DNA from: Halococcus salifodinae DSM 8989 | GTDB taxonomy: Archaea > Halobacteriota > Halobacteria > Halobacteriales > Halococcaceae | Length of the DNA: 64,000 bases | NCBI RefSeq assembly: GCF_000336935.1 | Contig: NZ_AOME01000051.1 | Coordinates: forward strand, 224,919-288,918 | Direction of reading: 5' to 3' | Part shown: piece after piece, positions 49,100-55,319 of the stretch | Position numbering within the stretch: position 1 is the stretch's first letter | How the letters are laid out: each line of letters begins with the position of its first letter | Program-made: the position numbers and the translations under genes | Notes under the pieces: generated by a model | What the model was told of the DNA's origin: nothing | Seen by the model: the letters and a program-made list of their open reading frames with translations, nothing else | Databases searched by the model: none

Positions 49100-50110
49100 A
49101 TGACCGCGCGCTCGCTGTTTTTCACCGGCCAGACCGAGATCGCGCTCCGCGAGATGCCGATCACGGAACCGGCCGACGGGGAGGTGCGGGTCCGCACGAC
49201 GGCGTCGGCCATCAGTGCCGGCACGGAACTGCTGGTGTACCGCGGCCAGGTGCCCGAATCGATGGCGGCCGACGAGTCGATCGACGCCCTCGACGGTGAC
49301 TTCGAGTACCCGCTCCAGTACGGCTACGCGGCCGTCGGCCGCGTGACGGCGGTCGGGAACGACGTCGACGACGCGTGGCTCGATCGCCGGGTGTTCGGGT
49401 TCAACCCCCACGAGAGCCACTTCGTCACCACGCCGGCGGCGCTTCGCGAAGTTCCGGAAACGCTCTCCGACGCCGAGGCCGCGCTGCTGGCGAACGCCGA
49501 GGCCGCGGTCAACTTCCTTCTCGACGGGCGGCCCGCACTCGGCGAGCGCGTCGCGGTGTTCGGCCAGGGCGTCGTCGGCCTCCTGACGACGGCGTTGCTC
49601 GCCGACCTCCCGCTCGAAACGCTGGTCACCGTCGACGGCTACGAGCGCCGACGCGACCTCTCGATCTCGCTCGGAGCTGACGTCGCGATCGATCCGGACG
49701 ACGACCTCGACGCGCGTCTCGACGGCCACGAGCCGCCCCGTGGCGCGGATCTCGCCTACGAGCTCTCGGGCCAGCCCGACGCGCTCGACGACGCTATCGA
49801 CGTCGTGGGCACCGCCGGCCAGGTGATCATCGGCTCGTGGTACGGCACGAAACCCATGCACCTCGATCTCGGGGGGACCTTCCACCGGAGTCGCATCCGC
49901 CTCCAGAGCAGTCAGGTCAGCACCATCGACCCCGTCGACCGCGGCCGGTGGTCGAAGGAACGCCGCTTAGGCGAGGCCTGCCGGCTCCTCGAACGGATCG
50001 ACGCTGAACGACTCGTGACCCATCGCGTGCCGATCGAACGGGCCGACGACGCCTATCGCCTTCTCGACGAACGCCCGCGGGAGGCGATTGGGGTTCTCCT
50101 CACCTACTAG
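49100..50110 (+). CDS. Zinc-type alcohol dehydrogenase-like protein (MDR family)
   Basis: 336 residues. The GroES-like N-domain contains TTASAISAGTELLVYRGQVP and PLQYGYAAVGRV; the Rossmann part has VFGQGVVGLLTTALL at about residue 150. Cys and Glu ligands of the catalytic zinc are largely missing, as in the sugar- and chlorophyllide-reductase branch. It may oxidise or reduce a sugar. The ATG is at 49100; the frame is open to 48995 but contains no start codon. It lies at the end of the UbiA/epimerase gene neighbourhood. Confidence 0.82.
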   Translation: MTARSLFFTGQTEIALREMPITEPADGEVRVRTTASAISAGTELLVYRGQVPESMAADESIDALDGDFEYPLQYGYAAVGRVTAVGNDVDDAWLDRRVFGFNPHESHFVTTPAALREVPETLSDAEAALLANAEAAVNFLLDGRPALGERVAVFGQGVVGLLTTALLADLPLETLVTVDGYERRRDLSISLGADVAIDPDDDLDARLDGHEPPRGADLAYELSGQPDALDDAIDVVGTAGQVIIGSWYGTKPMHLDLGGTFHRSRIRLQSSQVSTIDPVDRGRWSKERRLGEACRLLERIDAERLVTHRVPIERADDAYRLLDERPREAIGVLLTY

Positions 50111-50115
50111 AAGCC

Positions 50116-50182
50116 CACTTTTTTTACAAGGAGCCCTCAGTCACGCGCTTCGCGCGCTCCCTCGAACCCCTTCCAAAAACCT
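50116..50182. repeat. Repeat element C, left conserved part
   Basis: The segment matches the reverse complement of 34503-34560 in element B: T-tract, ACAAGG, CCCTCGAACCCCTTCC, AAAAACCT. It contains a small CGCGC-TTC-GCGCG hairpin that B lacks (B has a shorter GCTCCGCTC version). Confidence 0.75.
50119..50125 (+). terminator. T-run terminator after the MDR dehydrogenase gene
   Basis: Seven T residues begin 9 nt after the stop codon at 50110. Archaeal termination relies on such U-tracts together with aCPSF1, whose gene lies 3 kb away in this window. The run is also the edge of repeat element C. Confidence 0.55.
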
Positions 50183-50354
50183 GTTTCCGTGAGTAGCGCG
50201 GGACCGGAGGTCCCGCGGACCGTTCGCGCGGCGGAGCCGCGCGAAGACGAAGGCGAACGGAGGCTCGGAAGACGAGCGGCACGAGGTGCGAGCGTAGTGA
50301 GCACCTCGATGCGAACGGCGAGGAACGAGCCGTGAGCGAAGCGAATCTTCCGGT
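50183..50354. repeat. Hairpin array inserted into repeat element C
   Basis: This 172-nt segment splits a sequence that is contiguous in element B. It contains three hairpins. The first has 9-bp arms around GGA (50197-50217). The second has 10-bp arms TTCGCGCGGC/GCCGCGCGAA around GGA (50223-50245). The third has an 8-bp outer stem CGAGGTGC/GCACCTCG (50282-50308) whose exact centre reads C-GTA-G. A weaker GGCTCG/CGAGCC pair (50262/50326) encloses the third. No gene is present. Confidence 0.8.
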
Positions 50355-50373
50355 GGACTAAAAACACCCGCTC
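50355..50373. repeat. Repeat element C, right conserved part
   Basis: The segment GGACTAAAAACACCCGCTC matches the reverse complement of 34484-34502 in element B, where it directly adjoins the left conserved part. Confidence 0.7.
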
Positions 50374-50543
50374 GCTCACTTCGTTCGCTCACGGCGAACC
50401 GTGCTCGCTTCGCTCGCACGGACGTTCTCTATTCGCACCGCTGAAGCCCTCGGCGCGCTCGCTGTGCTCGCGCGCCTCGCCCTTCATCCGCTGTCAGAGA
50501 AACCTCCGACAAGCCTCGTGTTCGTTTCACTCACACGAGACGC

Positions 50544-50670
50544 CAGGAGAACTCTGTTCTCCTGAGCCTCGACTCGCTGCGTTCTCGTGAGCCGAAGGTG
50601 AACGAGGGTTCGGAGTCGTTCGAAAGGCGCTTCGCGCCTTTCGTGATGACGAGGGAGCTTCGCTCCCTCG
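50544..50670. repeat. Second hairpin cluster of element C
   Basis: Three perfect hairpins lie within 127 nt: CAGGAGAAC-TCT-GTTCTCCTG (50544-50564), CGAAAGGCGC-TTC-GCGCCTTTCG arms of 10 bp (50621-50643) and CGAGGGAGC-TTC-GCTCCCTCG arms of 9 bp (50650-50670). All loops are three bases closed by C-G. Basic, Ser- and Arg-rich ORFs that cross the region are by-products of the repeats and are not genes. Confidence 0.8.
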
Positions 50671-50804
50671 AACCACGCGCGAAGCGTGCTCCGGCATTCG
50701 TCGGGACACCAGGCCCGCGCCACCGTCGTCGCTTGTCTCGGGCTATTTCACTTTCACTCCGGGGATGGCATCGGTTGATACCCGTTGGGGACTGTTCGAC
50801 AGCC

Positions 50805-50963
50805 ATGTTCGAGAATCTCGCCGCGAGGTGTGAGGCGGCCGAGTGCGACCGCGACCTTCCGGACGAGCCGTCGCTCGTCTTCCGTGATCCGTCGGGAGAG
50901 CGCCGCGCTTACGAGTGTCCGTGCGGTGCGGTCACGGTGACGGTCGCGAAGGCACACGCCTAA
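50805..50963 (+). CDS. Small Cys-containing protein of unknown function
   Basis: 52 residues from ATG 50805, with four Cys: two in the N-terminal part (ARCEAAECDRD) and two in ECPCGAVTV near the end. A zinc site is likely. It is followed 24 nt later by the DUF371 gene on the same strand. The upstream continuation of the frame runs through hairpin DNA and was rejected. No family is recognised. Confidence 0.6.
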   Translation: MFENLAARCEAAECDRDLPDEPSLVFRDPSGERRAYECPCGAVTVTVAKAHA

Positions 50964-50987
50964 CCGCCGACGGGGCCGACGGAACGC

Positions 50988-51401
50988 ATGAAGGAAGTCG
51001 TCCACGCGCGCGGCCACGAACACGTCACCGCACAGCACGCGAGCACGCTCGAACTCACGAGCGACGACTACCTCACGCCCGCCGGCGACTGCATCATCGG
51101 GATCGAAGCCGATCGCACGCCCGCCGACTTCGATCAAGAGTTCGTCGCGGCCTGTCGCGACGCCGACGCGACGATCACCGCGACGTTCGAGGCAGGCGAT
51201 CACACCCAAACGGTCCGCGGGCGAGGCCATCCAGAACTCGAATTCACGAACGACCGGAGCCTGGTCTGTCGGACGAGCGAGTACGTCGACGATCGGACGG
51301 TGATGGTGGATGCGGACGCGGCGGCCGCCGATCTCGATCGGAACCTCGTGGCGGCGCTCGCCGATGGTGCGGATCTCCAGGCTACCTTCCGGGTCGAATA
51401 G
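50988..51401 (+). CDS. DUF371 family protein
   Basis: 137 residues covering the complete DUF371 domain: VHARGHEHVTAQHASTLELTSDDYLTPAGDCIIGI at the start, then RGRGHPELEFTNDRSLVCRTSEYVDDRTVMV. The domain is archaeal and without known function; the His-rich first strand and conserved Asp could bind a metal. It sits between the small Cys protein and nth, with short gaps, suggesting one transcription unit. Confidence 0.88.
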   Translation: MKEVVHARGHEHVTAQHASTLELTSDDYLTPAGDCIIGIEADRTPADFDQEFVAACRDADATITATFEAGDHTQTVRGRGHPELEFTNDRSLVCRTSEYVDDRTVMVDADAAAADLDRNLVAALADGADLQATFRVE

Positions 51402-51431
51402 CGTTTTGTGGCCGGCACTCGTCCCATCGTC

Positions 51432-52247
51432 ATGAGCAACGACGCGGAGCCGTCCGAGAACATCAGCGGGGGTCCCGATGGCGGTGGACTCGAAACGGCG
51501 TTCGAGGAGCGCGAAGCCGACACACGCACCGAGGCCGTGGTGGACCGGCTCGGCGAACGCTACTGGCAGAAGACCTACGGCGGCCAGGACGCCTTCGAGT
51601 GTCTCGTCCGCACGATTCTGAGCCAGAACACGAGCGACAAGGCGAGCCAACCAGCCCACGACGTGCTGATGGATCGGTACTGCGAGGAGGACGGCGATCT
51701 CGCCGCCACGCTCGCCGACGCCGACCAACCCACGCTCGCCGAAACCATCGAGTCGGCGGGCCTCTACAACCAGAAATCGGCGACGATGATCGCCATCGCC
51801 GAGCGCATCGTCGATGAATACGGTGGGGCGGAGGAGTTCAACGGGTTCGTTGCCGAGGGAGATCCCGAAACCGTGCGCGACGCGCTCCTCGATTTTTCGG
51901 GCGTGGGTCCCAAAACTGCCGACTGCGTGCTCCTGTTTTCGGGCGGGCGTGCGGGCGTCTTTCCAGTCGACACCCACGTCCACCGCATTTACCGCCGGCT
52001 CGGGATCGCGCCGCCCGAGGCCGACCACGAAGAAGTCAGGGCGGTCGTCGAAGACCAGGTACCGGCCGAGAAATGTGGGTTCGGCCACACCGCCTCGATC
52101 CAGTTCGGGCGGGAGTACTGCACCGCGCGCAAACCGGCGTGTCTCGATGATCCCGACGCCTGTCCGATGGCTGATCTCTGCGATCAGGTCGGTGTCTATC
52201 CCGAAACGGGCGAGGTGGTCGATCCCGCCGACGCGCCGGCGGAGTAG
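51432..52247 (+). CDS. nth: Endonuclease III (DNA glycosylase/AP lyase)
   Basis: 271 residues. The helix-hairpin-helix GVGPKTADCV carries the catalytic Lys161, and Asp180 follows in PVDTHVHRI. The Fe-S cluster cysteines are C230, C237, C244 and C250; the middle spacing is six residues rather than the two of E. coli Nth. The enzyme removes oxidised pyrimidines and nicks the abasic site. ATG 51432 is preferred over the upstream 51408 start because the extra eight residues are not conserved. An acidic N-terminal tail of 25 residues is typical for halophiles. Confidence 0.94.
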   Translation: MSNDAEPSENISGGPDGGGLETAFEEREADTRTEAVVDRLGERYWQKTYGGQDAFECLVRTILSQNTSDKASQPAHDVLMDRYCEEDGDLAATLADADQPTLAETIESAGLYNQKSATMIAIAERIVDEYGGAEEFNGFVAEGDPETVRDALLDFSGVGPKTADCVLLFSGGRAGVFPVDTHVHRIYRRLGIAPPEADHEEVRAVVEDQVPAEKCGFGHTASIQFGREYCTARKPACLDDPDACPMADLCDQVGVYPETGEVVDPADAPAE

Positions 52248-52250
52248 GGA

Positions 52251-52652
52251 TCACCGGCGAGCGACGGCGACGACCAGCGCGAGCGAAACGAGGACGAACG
52301 CGATCAGCGAGAGGTTTGGCACTGTCAGGCCAAGAATTTGGTACTGGACGGTGCCGCAGCTTCCGACCGAGCAGGTCGCGGAGTCGGCCGTGGCCTGGAA
52401 CCACGAGTGGTAGGCCGCCACGCCAGCCCCGAGAACCGACAGCGGCAGCGCGCTGCGGTAGACGCCGGGGCGGTTTTCGAGCGCGGCCACGCCGAGGATC
52501 ACAGTCAGGGGGTACATCAGGATGCGTTGGTACCAGCAGAGCTCGCAGGGGATCAGCCCGAGACCGAGGCTGAGATAGAGGCTCCAGATCGTGGCGATCG
52601 CCGCGACGAGCGTGGCAACCGCAAGCCAGAGTCGAGAATTGATACGGCGCAT
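52251..52652 (-). CDS. dsbB: DsbB-type disulfide bond formation membrane protein
   Basis: 133 residues with four helices. The first redox pair is CELC (Cys36 and Cys39) at the end of the first helix, and the second pair is C94 and C99 in ATCSVGSCG in the second external loop. The LIPCELCWYQRILMYPL block is the family hallmark. It should reoxidise a thioredoxin-like partner outside the cell using a membrane quinone. It is convergent with nth, 3 nt apart, and its promoter region adjoins the hairpin array D. Confidence 0.93.
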   Translation of the reverse strand: MRRINSRLWLAVATLVAAIATIWSLYLSLGLGLIPCELCWYQRILMYPLTVILGVAALENRPGVYRSALPLSVLGAGVAAYHSWFQATADSATCSVGSCGTVQYQILGLTVPNLSLIAFVLVSLALVVAVARR

Positions 52653-52763
52653 TTGCTGACCTCTCGCACAAGTGGAACGTAGTGGTTGCGGTACGAGTCG
52701 CCGCCCGTGAGCAGAGGCTACGCTCCCGGCGCGCGCAACTGCGGTGCGGCGCAGCCTGGTGTC

Positions 52764-52940
52764 CTGACGAGCGAAGTCGTTCGAAACGGCGATAACGAGG
52801 CGCTACGCGCCTCGAACCGTTGGCGCGGCGAAGCCGCGCCAAGAAGCCGTTTCGTGATGTCGTCAGATTCCGACGGAATCTGACTGCTTGCAGGAAATCA
52901 CCGATTTCCTGCAATGACGAAAGACGCGAAGCGTCTTTCG
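52764..52940. repeat. Hairpin array D, main part with a three-way branched fold
   Basis: Five perfect hairpins lie in 177 nt: CGAGGCGC-TAC (52796-52814), TTGGCGCGGC-GAA (52820-52842), GTCAGATTCC-GAC (52862-52884), TTGCAGGAAATC-ACC (52888-52914) and CGAAAGACGC-GAA (52918-52940); arms are 8-12 bp. An outer 9-bp stem, CGAAACGGC (52782-52790) with GCCGTTTCG (52846-52854), encloses the first two and makes a three-way junction. A further CTGACGA/TCGTCAG pair (52764/52860) is an alternative. No gene is present between dsbB and aCPSF1. Confidence 0.85.
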
Positions 52941-52957
52941 GACCACGAGGCAGGGCT

Positions 52958-53073
52958 TGGAAGAGTTCCGCTCTTCCAGTGGACATGAAAAGGGCGAGGC
53001 GCGCCGTCGTTTCGCTTCGTCTGCTCGCGGGCCTACGGCCCGCTCGCACGGTCCGCGGGACGCGGAGCGTCCC
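52958..53073. repeat. Hairpin array D, right part homologous to element C
   Basis: Hairpins are TGGAAGAG with a 5-base centre (52958-52978), GCGGGCC-TAC-GGCCCGC (53027-53043) and GGGACGC-GGA-GCGTCCC (53057-53073). In reverse complement the last two align with the first two hairpins of element C. They share the flanks GAGTAGCG, GCGGACCGT and AGACGAAG, while the stems differ but stay paired. Confidence 0.82.
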
Positions 53074-53102
53074 TCGCTACTCGCGCGAGACGCCGAGGGC
53101 TT

Positions 53103-55010
53103 TCACTTGAATCGGAAGGTTTCGAGGTTCTTCGGCGCGAACGTCCGCATGTTGTAGTTGTGATACAGCGCCGAGGAGAGATCCTGGACGCTCGACTCGT
53201 CGCCGTGGACGCAGAGCACTTTTTCAGGCCTGGGATTCATCGTCTTCACGAAGTTTTCCAGCCCCTGGCGGTCGGCGTGGCCCGAGAACCCGTCGACGGT
53301 CTCGACGTCGAAATCGAGGTTGAGCGTGTCCGAACGGCCGCGGCCGTTGCGCGGGATCTCGTCCCAGCCGTTTTGGATGCGGCGGCCGAGGGTGCCCTGG
53401 GCCTGGTAGCCAACGAAGACCATCGTGGTGTCGGTGTCGGCTCCGAGATGATCGAGCCACGACATGATCGGGCCGCCGGTGACCATCCCCGAGGTCGAGA
53501 GGATGATCGCGGGATCGCCCGCGGCGACCTCCTCGCGCTCGTCGTCGCCCTCGTCGATGTGGTTGAACTGGGGTGCGAGGAACGGGTTCTCGTCGTCGTG
53601 GAAGATGCGATCCCGGAGATCGTCCCGAAGGTACTCGGGATAGGTGGTGTGGATCGCGGTCGCCTCCCAGATCATCCCGTCGAGGTGGACGGGCATTTCG
53701 GGGATCTTCCCGGTGCGCATCGCCTCTTCGAGGACGAGCATGATCTCCTGAGAGCGCCCTACCGCAAAGGCCGGAATCAGAATTTTGCCACCCTGATCGT
53801 GGGTTTCGTTGATGACCTCGATCAGGTTCTCTTCGGAGTCGGCCTGATCGGTCTGGTAGTCGTTCCGGCCCCCGTAGGTGGACTCCATCACGAGCGTCTC
53901 GACCCGCGGGAAGTCGTTGACTGCGCCGTTGAACAGTCTGGTATCGTCGTAGTGGATGTCGCCCGAGAAGGCCACGTTATAAAATCCGTCGCCGATGTGG
54001 AAGTGGGCGACCGACGACCCGAGGATGTGGCCGGCGTTGTGGAGCGTGAGCTTCACGTCGGGCGCGATGTCGGTGACGTCGCCGTACTCGATCGGGATGG
54101 CGTGTTTGACCGCTTCCCGGACCATCGCGCTGTCGTAGGGCGGGCTGCGGCCCTCTTTCGCCGCGACGTCGAGGTAGTCGAGCTGGAGCAGTCCCATCAG
54201 GTCGCGGGTCGGCTCGGTGGTGTAGATCGGCCCGTCGTAGCCGTACTTGAACAGGAGGGGAATCAGCGCGGAGTGATCGAGGTGGGCGTGAGTGAGGACG
54301 ACGGCGTCGAGCGAATTCAGGGGGTTCGCCTCGGGAACTTGGAGGTACGGCGCGTCGTCCGAACCCGGTTTGTCGCCACAGTCGATCAGGATTCTCGTCT
54401 CGGGCGTCGAGAGGATAAAGCTCGCGCGGCCGACCTCCCGACAGCAGCCGAGCGTCGAGATCCGAACCCACTCGTCGTCGGCCATCTCCTCGCGGTGGAT
54501 CTGGCGGCCGACCCGCTCCAAGATGTCGCGGCGCTCCTCGCGCTCCTGTTTGAGGAAGCTTCTAACGTTGGAAACCGTGGAGGACTCGATCGGCGGCGTC
54601 CGGACGACTTCGGGCGTCCAGCCGACTTCCTGGGTGATCTCCCGGAGCGTCGAGCCGTGCCGGCCGATCACCATGCCTGGTTTGGCGGCCTCGATCACGA
54701 CCTCGCCGGTGTCGGCGTGGAAGTCGAGGTCGGAGACATCGGCCTTCTCGGGGATCACGTTCATGACCTGCTCGCGTGCAGTCGTTGGATCGGTGAGCGC
54801 GTCGGGGACCGGCCGCACGGTGATGCGCTTGCGGAGCTGACCCGCGAGGTTGCGGATCAGGTCGCCGTTGCGCGCGAACTTCTTCGGGTCGCGCGTGTAG
54901 ATCACGAGTTCCGGTCCCTCGTAGGTCACGTCCGACACGGAGATGTCGTTCGGGAGTTCGTCGACTATCGTTGCCTGTAGCTCGTCGAGCTGCTTGTCAA
55001 CCGTACTCAT
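53103..55010 (-). CDS. fttA: KH/beta-CASP ribonuclease aCPSF1 (transcription termination factor FttA)
   Basis: 635 residues, the family length. Two KH domains occupy about 1-145 (GMVIGRHGSTLREI is the second GxxG loop). The metallo-beta-lactamase domain follows, with HAHLDHS near residue 240, HNAGHILGSS and SGDIHYDD. The beta-CASP part holds ESTYGGRND, IPAFAVGRSQE and the final HGDE histidine. The enzyme cleaves nascent RNA at U-tracts and terminates transcription in archaea. ATG 55010 starts the family sequence; the open frame further upstream is not conserved. It is transcribed alone. Confidence 0.96.
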   Translation of the reverse strand: MSTVDKQLDELQATIVDELPNDISVSDVTYEGPELVIYTRDPKKFARNGDLIRNLAGQLRKRITVRPVPDALTDPTTAREQVMNVIPEKADVSDLDFHADTGEVVIEAAKPGMVIGRHGSTLREITQEVGWTPEVVRTPPIESSTVSNVRSFLKQEREERRDILERVGRQIHREEMADDEWVRISTLGCCREVGRASFILSTPETRILIDCGDKPGSDDAPYLQVPEANPLNSLDAVVLTHAHLDHSALIPLLFKYGYDGPIYTTEPTRDLMGLLQLDYLDVAAKEGRSPPYDSAMVREAVKHAIPIEYGDVTDIAPDVKLTLHNAGHILGSSVAHFHIGDGFYNVAFSGDIHYDDTRLFNGAVNDFPRVETLVMESTYGGRNDYQTDQADSEENLIEVINETHDQGGKILIPAFAVGRSQEIMLVLEEAMRTGKIPEMPVHLDGMIWEATAIHTTYPEYLRDDLRDRIFHDDENPFLAPQFNHIDEGDDEREEVAAGDPAIILSTSGMVTGGPIMSWLDHLGADTDTTMVFVGYQAQGTLGRRIQNGWDEIPRNGRGRSDTLNLDFDVETVDGFSGHADRQGLENFVKTMNPRPEKVLCVHGDESSVQDLSSALYHNYNMRTFAPKNLETFRFK

Positions 55011-55319
55011 AGTAAGACTCGGGTCATGTGCTGAGAGACCACGCGTGTGCCGGTCCGGCGTCGCCCCCGGCTCCCGGTCGGACCGATCCCTGATCGCCGG
55101 TGTGGGTCGGTCCGTTCGGTGGACGGGAACCGTTCGCGAGAGGCACGGACTGTGGCATACAATACTCTCTGGAGGTCGTTCGGTCCGCACGACGCGTGGG
55201 TCCGGACTCGTGACAGTGGACTGCTGAGAGCCCGGAGAACCCGCGTGTATCTGCTCCTATCGGGTGACGGTAATAAAACCTTTCGCAAAGCGTACCCCGC
55301 CAGCACTCCGTTCTGCCGT
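55011..55319. other. Intergenic region between aCPSF1 and the next gene
   Basis: No gene is supported. Two divergent promoters must lie here. AATAAAACC around 55272-55280, about 40 nt before ATG 55320, is the best TATA candidate for the plus-strand gene. The stretch next to the aCPSF1 start is GC-rich without a clear element, which may mean a long leader for that gene. Confidence 0.4.

Follow-up and report, generated by a model that had tools for sequence, protein, structure and literature searches.

What produces and keeps arrays of perfect DNA hairpins whose loops are exactly three bases long? The question is raised by two such arrays, C and D, between positions 50183 and 53073 of the 64,000-nucleotide window analyzed here, which covers positions 224,919-288,918 of contig C51 in the 4.2-Mb draft genome (109 contigs) of Halococcus salifodinae DSM 8989 (G000). 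An earlier note on this sequence described the hairpins and missed the unit to which they belong, a 50-66-nt mobile element composed of two hairpins, nested within its own kind and distributed order-wide. The best explanation, considered probable but far from certain, is that both arrays are nests of such small non-autonomous DNA elements, which would have been moved as folded strands.

All perfect C-NNN-G triloop hairpins listed in the earlier note were found again, every one closed by a C-G pair, and nine of the 11 perfect triloop hairpins between positions 50183 and 53073 carry a GNA loop on one strand. The note had held that chance cannot give such uniform spacing and closure and had named shuffling as the way to refute this, and the shuffles bore the statement out. 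In a 400-kb sample of G000 (20 stretches over eight contigs, picked before an array-rich second sample), 32 perfect inverted repeats with arms of at least 9 bp and 3-nt loops were counted, compared with four in shuffled DNA; the shuffled controls preserve dinucleotides only, protein-coding structure lying outside their model, and all hairpin counts in this study refer to sampled stretches rather than whole genomes. The closing pair was C-G in 30 of these 32 hairpins, and the loop was GNA or TNC in 25 (GAA/TTC in 19, GGA/TCC in five, and GTA in one). Other loop lengths were mostly near background, although 1-nt loops were also raised (14 vs. three shuffled). DNA folding compared with shuffles gave z -6.9 for array C and z -8.9 for array D. 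Loop-3 hairpins also exceeded shuffled counts in the same-genus genomes G002 (19 vs. two) and G008 (10 vs. zero) and, weakly, in G003 (five vs. three), whereas several relatives (G005, G012, G014, G015, G016, G018, and G020) were at background. The distant genome G136 contained 12 with stems of at least 8 bp, 11 of them GNA, compared with 3.3 in shuffled DNA. When counts were made per distinct stem, GNA/TNC loops formed the majority for 45 of the 64 Halococcus stems and for 38 of the 61 from other haloarchaea (shuffled: one of 14 and none of six). As read from these sequences, the invariant is structural, with loop and closing pair fixed and stems variable. By simple codon-based gene calls made for this analysis, which also underlie the orientation counts below, 77 of 91 perfect GNA/TNC hairpins were intergenic, 11 were coding, and three lay at gene edges. 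Additionally, the 5' arm was purine-rich in most hairpins (e.g., CGAAAGACGC, CGAGGGAGC, CAGGAGAGC, and CGGAAGAGC), on both strands alike.

Many arrays also contain a second, imperfect class of hairpins, referred to here as the GA class, in which a 2x2 mismatch separates an outer stem of variable sequence from a short inner stem that carries the triloop. Where the inner stem was 2 bp, the mismatch was GA/GA in 64 of 134 hairpins (two of 74 in shuffled DNA), and where it was 7-12 bp, in 10 of 17 (none of three in shuffled DNA). With 2-bp inner stems the GNA loop always occupied the GA strand: cores with GA on the plus strand had 25 GNA and no TNC loops, those with GA on the minus strand had 24 TNC and no GNA loops, and among unique copies 95 GNA and no TNC loops lay on the GA strand. 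This tie was lost for inner stems of 7-12 bp, as is expected if long perfect arms allow the loop between them to invert. A pyrimidine directly preceded GA in 79 of 90 and 54 of 63 copies, and Py-GA-Pu is the context in which tandem sheared G.A pairs stabilize DNA. Both the GNA loop and the GA/GA mismatch are motifs that make DNA hairpins unusually stable. The data suggest that such structures, known for their stability in the test tube, are used genome-wide in cells.

The unit carrying these hairpins emerged from comparison of copies. When array C was compared by BLAST with the rest of G000, 92 matches were returned, arranged in blocks that ran in either orientation, and the inserts that distinguished one copy from another measured about 50-66 nt and contained two hairpins each. 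Adjacent hairpin pairs (n=99) were joined by the recurring linkers AGC/GCT, TCATCA/TGATGA, TGCAA, and RACCG. The element was accordingly defined as two hairpins (hp) and a 3-10-nt linker, 50-66 nt in total, with four subfamilies: alpha, GTCGTT-hp-TGATGA-hp-AACCAC (62 nt), whose ends are complementary over only 6 nt (GTCGTT/AACSAC); beta, AG-hp-RRCCG-hp-GAC (54 nt); gamma, C-hp-AGC-hp-ACG with a second hairpin of the GA class (about 50 nt); and delta, TGTC-hp-TGC-hp (57 nt).

Array D, as reconstructed by excision and rejoining, consists of three levels nested in a single host hairpin, with a beta element in the loop and a delta element in the linker of an alpha element. The host (level 0) is a GA-class hairpin at 52763..52954 (+), CCTGAC-GA-GCGAAGC-GA-GGCAGG, whose tip is split by alpha; excising 52777-52945 rejoins CCTGACGAGCGAAG^CGAGGCAGG (the caret marks the insertion point), and the ortholog in G008 is uninterrupted (CCTGCCGAACGAAGTGAGGCAGG). 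The alpha element (level 1) spans 52777..52945 (+) and takes the canonical 60-nt form TCGTTCGAAACGGCGAAGCCGTTTCGTGATGACGAAAGACGCGAAGCGTCTTTCGGACCA after removal of 52791-52842 and 52858-52914. The former of these segments (level 2, +) is a 52-nt beta-type double hairpin at C^GAA of the triloop of the first alpha hairpin (hpA), for which an uninterrupted counterpart exists at L060:8019 (CGAAACGGC-GAA-GCCGTTTCG). The latter (level 2, +) is a 57-nt delta double hairpin that splits the alpha linker at its midpoint, TGA^TGA, a site that takes other inserts in other copies. Perfect hairpins within array D start at 52796 (loop TAC, 8 bp), 52820 (GAA, 10 bp), and 52888 (ACC, 12 bp); a further one at 52862, with the loop C-GAC-G, was scored as having a 1-nt loop, since its G and C can pair. 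The second alpha hairpin (hpB; 10 bp, C-GAA-G loop) lies at 52918..52940. The level-0 hairpin is itself part of a gamma element, continuing through a GCT linker (52955-52957) into a second hairpin at 52958..52978, the G008 equivalent of which is CGGGAGAGC-TTT.

A comparable split was observed in array C, where a GA-class hairpin at 50187..50260 (+; CCGT-GA-G...GAAGGC-GA-ACGG) is interrupted by a 54-nt beta element, AG-hp1-GACCG-hp2-GAC, at 50195..50248 (+). The element boundaries follow from empty sites: excising 50195-50248 rejoins TTTCCGTGAGT^GAAGGCGAACGG, and insert-free copies of the host exist, e.g., CTTCGTGAGCCGGAGGCGAACGAAGG and CCTCGTGAGCGGAGCGAACGAGG. Both hairpins of this element are perfect with C-GGA-G loops, the one at 50197..50217 with 9 bp and the one at 50223..50245 with 10 bp. 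The next host, at 50266..50352 (+; CGGAAGAC-GA-GCGAAGC-GA-..TCTTCCG), has an uninterrupted copy at L029:1879 and holds at its tip an insert of two GA-class hairpins (50279-50338), flanked by the direct repeat GAGCG at 50274-50278 and 50334-50338. One hairpin of this insert (50282..50308, +), identified from sequence and class statistics, has an 8-bp outer stem, a GA/GA mismatch, and a GTA loop.

Pairs of sites with and without an element recurred elsewhere. An alpha element was found in TCCGGCC-TC-G^C-TGT-GC-TC-GGCCGGA (L136), beta elements in CCTCGT-GA-GC^GGA-GC-GA-ACGAGG (L149, L044, L047, and L049; window position 50195) and in CGAAACGGC^GAA-GCCGTTTCG (L049; window position 52791), and gamma elements in CCCCC-GTA-GGGGG (L147 and L148); several further inserts lay mid-linker in alpha or beside hairpins. 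The preferred points were G^C for alpha (in some cases within another hairpin's GAGCGNAG^CGA core), the position directly 5' of the triloop (C^GNA) for beta, and the middle of the alpha linker for delta. Specifically, of 62 alpha copies, 52 lay at G^C, and a GA or TC core was restored in 15. No target duplication was needed at alpha, beta, or delta junctions; one array C insert has a 5-nt direct repeat, and others a 3-nt ambiguity. Between species, the intergenic site of array C, matched by its flanking genes, carries nine hairpins over about 650 nt in G002 and none in G008, while at another matched locus G008 has six hairpins and G002 at most one. A gamma element and a duplicated module of G000 are both absent from G008. 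Together, the empty sites and matched loci strongly support the view that the elements move.

The alpha stem CGAAAGRCGC, searched with any loop, matched exactly in at least 120 GTDB genome stretches. The 80 stretches fetched all came from haloarchaea, including Haloarcula, Halorubrum, Natrinema, Natronococcus, Halorientalis, Halovivax, and Salinarchaeum, except for one from Streptomyces (L218), which lay near a contig end, lacked the alpha flanks, and is probably a chance match. In 607 kb around the alpha-stem matches, a sample biased to element-rich places, 157 other triloop hairpins were counted compared with eight in shuffled DNA, 149 of them closed by C-G. Within the genus, hpA occurred in nine of 10 genomes at one to eight copies, with no match for the reversed control, and all 30 loops were GNA or TNC. 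Alpha was also present on 29 haloarchaeal plasmids, where 27 of the 29 matches lay outside annotated transposases; no alpha match was found in phage records or IMG/VR viral contigs, and viral carriage was rejected. Copies were also sought by the alpha flanks and linker only, with no hairpin required: among 68 matches, the second segment was of odd length in 63, and 49 of these formed a perfect hairpin and eight a hairpin with one mismatch. In the second stem, pair 6 was G-C in 25 and C-G in 15, pair 7 A-T in 21 and G-C in 17, and pair 8 G-C in 30 and C-G in 11. The covariation score of 26 aligned copies was 0.195, compared with 0.081 when shuffled and at most 0.094 when slid, but these copies had been pre-chosen as perfect, so the flank-and-linker search is the fair test. 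These comparisons among copies demonstrate the anatomy of the element, its order-wide range, its nesting, and its covariation. The motif GAGCGNAGCGA was rejected as a phylogenetic marker on its own, because its background and its reversed control were high. Its occurrence at about twice the reversed control in other genera (G117, G136, G031, G093, and G099) suggests wider or decayed relatives; in 80-kb samples, both hairpin classes were strong in G136 and not in G093 or G099.

If the elements were moved as folded strands, the mobile form would be single-stranded DNA, either on the lagging strand or as a fragment freed at replication or repair; its GNA loops and tandem sheared G.A pairs would keep it folded and protected. 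Hairpin tips would then be opened by a structure-specific nuclease or transposase acting in trans, so that the folded strand could be captured there and subsequently fixed by replication. The spacer of a long perfect hairpin might in addition flip by inversion between its arms, which would account for the two loop orientations observed. Loops on alpha's own strand were GNA in 20 and TNC in 16 cases for one hairpin count and 21 and 18 for another, and among stems seen at least three times, 15 of 21 in Halococcus and 11 of 17 in other haloarchaea occurred with both orientations. In a more tentative form of the proposal, the elements may be order-wide selfish DNA whose fold is the replicating trait, entering hairpin tips through ordinary replication and repair enzymes with no dedicated transposase.

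Several results weigh against movement as folded strands into hairpin tips. Removal of alpha restored a hairpin tip (score of at least 6) in only 10% of copies, although permuted flanks gave still fewer (1.7%), and only about 10 of some 22 distinct hand-classified insertions were at hairpin tips. An enclosing perfect stem was no commoner near elements than with permuted flanks (0.106 vs. 0.104), and a rule that every element lies inside such a stem was not supported. Empty sites within a genome could partly reflect deletions or gene conversion, the single-stranded intermediates and loop flipping are inferred rather than observed, and the elements are tied to no enzyme.

One other explanation is that the elements resemble PATEs or REPINs: their two hairpins would be those of the left and right ends of IS200/IS605 elements, and a Y1 (HUH) TnpA would move them in trans on single-stranded DNA. 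IS200/IS605 elements have two hairpins, no clear target duplication, and targets resembling single-stranded DNA, and G000 itself encodes four Y1 genes. PATEs, which are non-coding, likewise carry palindromes close to their termini and make no duplication, and 52-bp terminal-only forms of them are known (PMC3119063). Their palindromes match IS605 ends, a correspondence not shown for the present elements. The Y1 transposase family PF01797 was unmatched in two array-bearing species, G008 (99% complete) and G002 (97%), and G005 has the enzyme without hairpin enrichment. TnpB-like genes were found in all eight genomes searched. Triloop hairpins were few near Y1 loci of the genus and did not bracket the gene as ends, in a comparison that was not exhaustive, while alpha has no fixed loop strand and lies inside IS605-type end palindromes without being identical to them. 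After this search across the genus, Y1/RAYT was rejected as the driver, and the explanation as a whole is regarded as unlikely. About equally doubtful is an account with no transposition, in which dispersed hairpins, whether functional or neutral, would have spread during replication through template switching and gene conversion, and short homologies at hairpins would explain nests and loop flips. Such homologies do exist at some junctions (GAGCG at 50274/50334, and negative query gaps), a module is tandemly duplicated beside the gamma insert of G000, and the same stem is seen with both loop orientations. Template switching alone does not, however, predict uniform inserts of two hairpins and 50-66 nt with boundaries that recur in unrelated contexts and genera.

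The earlier note had left open whether single-stranded DNA hairpins or RNA stems are made or kept here; that a hairpin-forming nucleic acid is kept was upheld, while on the choice of molecule the evidence favors DNA. Elements acting at the RNA level, as terminators, mRNA stabilizers, or small RNAs perhaps spread via RNA copies, would fit the intergenic position of the hairpins, and hairpins and G.A pairs are common in RNA as well. In tandem-gene regions, however, the GNA loop was on the sense strand in 21 perfect hairpins and the antisense strand in 23, and in seven and 10 GA-class hairpins, respectively, and hairpins were about as dense between convergent or divergent genes as between tandem ones. 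The absence of transcript-strand bias makes DNA the most likely folded molecule, and on this and the equal density per gene context, transcript-level function was rejected as the main account. Additionally, no reverse transcriptase was found in seven array-bearing genomes, and an Rfam scan of the window matched only one tRNA and nothing in arrays C and D, leaving an RNA-level origin very unlikely. The loops of one fixed stem across the order, left free in the search (n=81), ranked GAA (26), GGA (19), GCA (8), and GTA (2), an order that fits the known stability of DNA mini-hairpins and again favors DNA over RNA; in DNA mini-hairpins, a GAA loop melts 6 degrees above GTA, according to a passage of PMC6479982 citing Yoshizawa 1997. 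Least credible of all is that the hairpins are palindromes bound by proteins as duplex DNA, or that they arose by chance in a GC-rich sequence. Palindromes can serve as operator sites, but the stems here are diverse and yet covary, with loop and closure fixed, and shuffled DNA fails to reproduce the pattern.

Nests of small mobile elements remain the preferred reading, and the element can be set beside known repeats. No description of a GNA-triloop double-hairpin design was found in the open-access literature, and to our knowledge the triloop design is unlike that of integron attC sites, which the earlier note had named with REP/RAYT elements as the nearest analogies. The closest counterpart is SMR-A of Haloquadratum walsbyi (HqIRS42/43/55), described by Dyall-Smith and colleagues, which targets near-terminal palindromes without duplication and whose movement was called enigmatic (PMC3119063). 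Like the present 50-66-nt units, which hold no transposase gene, SMR-A is small, transposase-free, and high in copy number. It is free of target duplication, on which the junctions of the present elements give a mixed picture, and it sits in near-terminal PATE/IS605 palindromes; alpha was seen in two IS605-type end regions (L293 and L294) but on plasmids mostly outside annotated transposases. Compared by description, SMR-A is longer (about 110 bp, vs. 62 nt for alpha) and has prominent terminal inverted repeats where alpha has only 6-nt complementary ends. It also differs in having no described GNA-triloop or GA/GA design and in its targets, since the present elements mostly target each other. 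The Haloquadratum plasmid PL47 contained no hairpin with arms of at least 9 and loops of up to 12 nt and was rejected as a source of SMR-A. REP/REPIN sequences with RAYT share paired palindromes, extragenic location, and mosaic clusters (PMC3116915, PMC2817692), but are built on one REP palindrome, compared with 64 distinct stems in the Halococcus sample; the analogy also fails for lack of RAYT/Y1 in G002 and G008. Double-hairpin elements of Allomyces mitochondrial DNA, sponge RHEs (PMC2800124), and Volvox palindromic repeats (PMC2670323) are short intergenic hairpin elements as well; the Volvox repeats, of which one is often found inserted into another, have loops of 3-5 nt (TAAA/TTTA, the two strands of a single sequence). 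As in the organellar double-hairpin elements, two adjacent hairpins move as one unit here. The organellar elements differ in residing in organelle genomes with unrelated sequence rather than on archaeal chromosomes and plasmids, in loops not of the GNA type, and in that the accounts consulted mention no tandem G.A design.

Small transposase-free repeats of archaea had no explained movement, and for this group of them there is now a precise structural definition, a set of insertion points, and an order-wide range, with movement testable in cultivable, genetically tractable haloarchaea. If the fold alone does drive spread, the elements would be selfish DNA without an enzyme of their own, possibly paralleling the unexplained double-hairpin elements of organelles.

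The remaining features of array C include two GA-class hairpins on the minus strand recognized from sequence, at 50399..50421 (GA and GNA on minus, loop GAA on minus) and 50452..50476 (loop ACA), followed by a double-hairpin insert of about 50 nt at 50492..50540 (-), which is missing from other copies of the module (L039 vs. L035, L075 vs. L063). A perfect 9-bp hairpin with a TCT loop at 50544..50564 forms the first half of a gamma element and is followed by its AGC linker. The 62-nt alpha element at 50615..50676 (+), GTCGTT-hpA(CGAAAGGCGC)-TGATGA-hpB(CGAGGGAGC)-AACCAC, has TTC loops in both hpA (50621..50643, 10 bp) and hpB (50650..50670, 9 bp). Array C is bordered on the left by a zinc-dehydrogenase-like gene ending at 50110 and on the right by a small gene, after which come DUF371 (50988) and, at 51408, an endonuclease III gene. 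The neighbors of array D are a DsbB-like gene (52251-52652, minus) on one side and, on the other, the gene for transcription termination factor FttA (53103-55190, minus), the 3' end of which directly adjoins the array. On this side, a beta-prime element at 53020..53082 (-), TCTGCTC-hp(GCGGGCC-TAC)-TCGCACGGTC-hp(GGGACGC-GGA)-CTACTC, contains perfect 7-bp hairpins at 53027 (TAC) and 53057 (GGA), with GA/GA mismatches outside the first stem.

Tracts of T5-T7 or A5 often border arrays (window 50120-50180 and 50358-50366; L058:13531), e.g., ACTTTTTTTACAAGG and GGACTAAAAACACC, and could be archaeal transcription terminators for both directions; a whole array was also seen enclosed by an 11-bp inverted repeat, TGAACCTTTTT. 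Many array loci share a hairpin-poor backbone module, ACCGCAACCGCACAGCACCGCCGAAGCCCTCGG...CTCGCCCTTCATCC (L084:2776-2811 vs. L133), tandemly duplicated in G000, which may be an older element hosting hairpins. Finally, two tnpB-bearing elements on Salinirubellus and Halovenus plasmids (L293 and L294) carry alpha within the palindrome region at their right end; alpha was rejected as a true IS605 right end because it is inserted within that region. At L293:2400-2640 and L294 (reverse) at about 2437-2552, the IS605-type tnpB receives its last codons and stop from alpha and other double hairpins located at its 3' end, the stop being the TGA of the TGATGA/TGATCA linker; this could alter both the tail of TnpB and the guide-RNA region that overlaps there.

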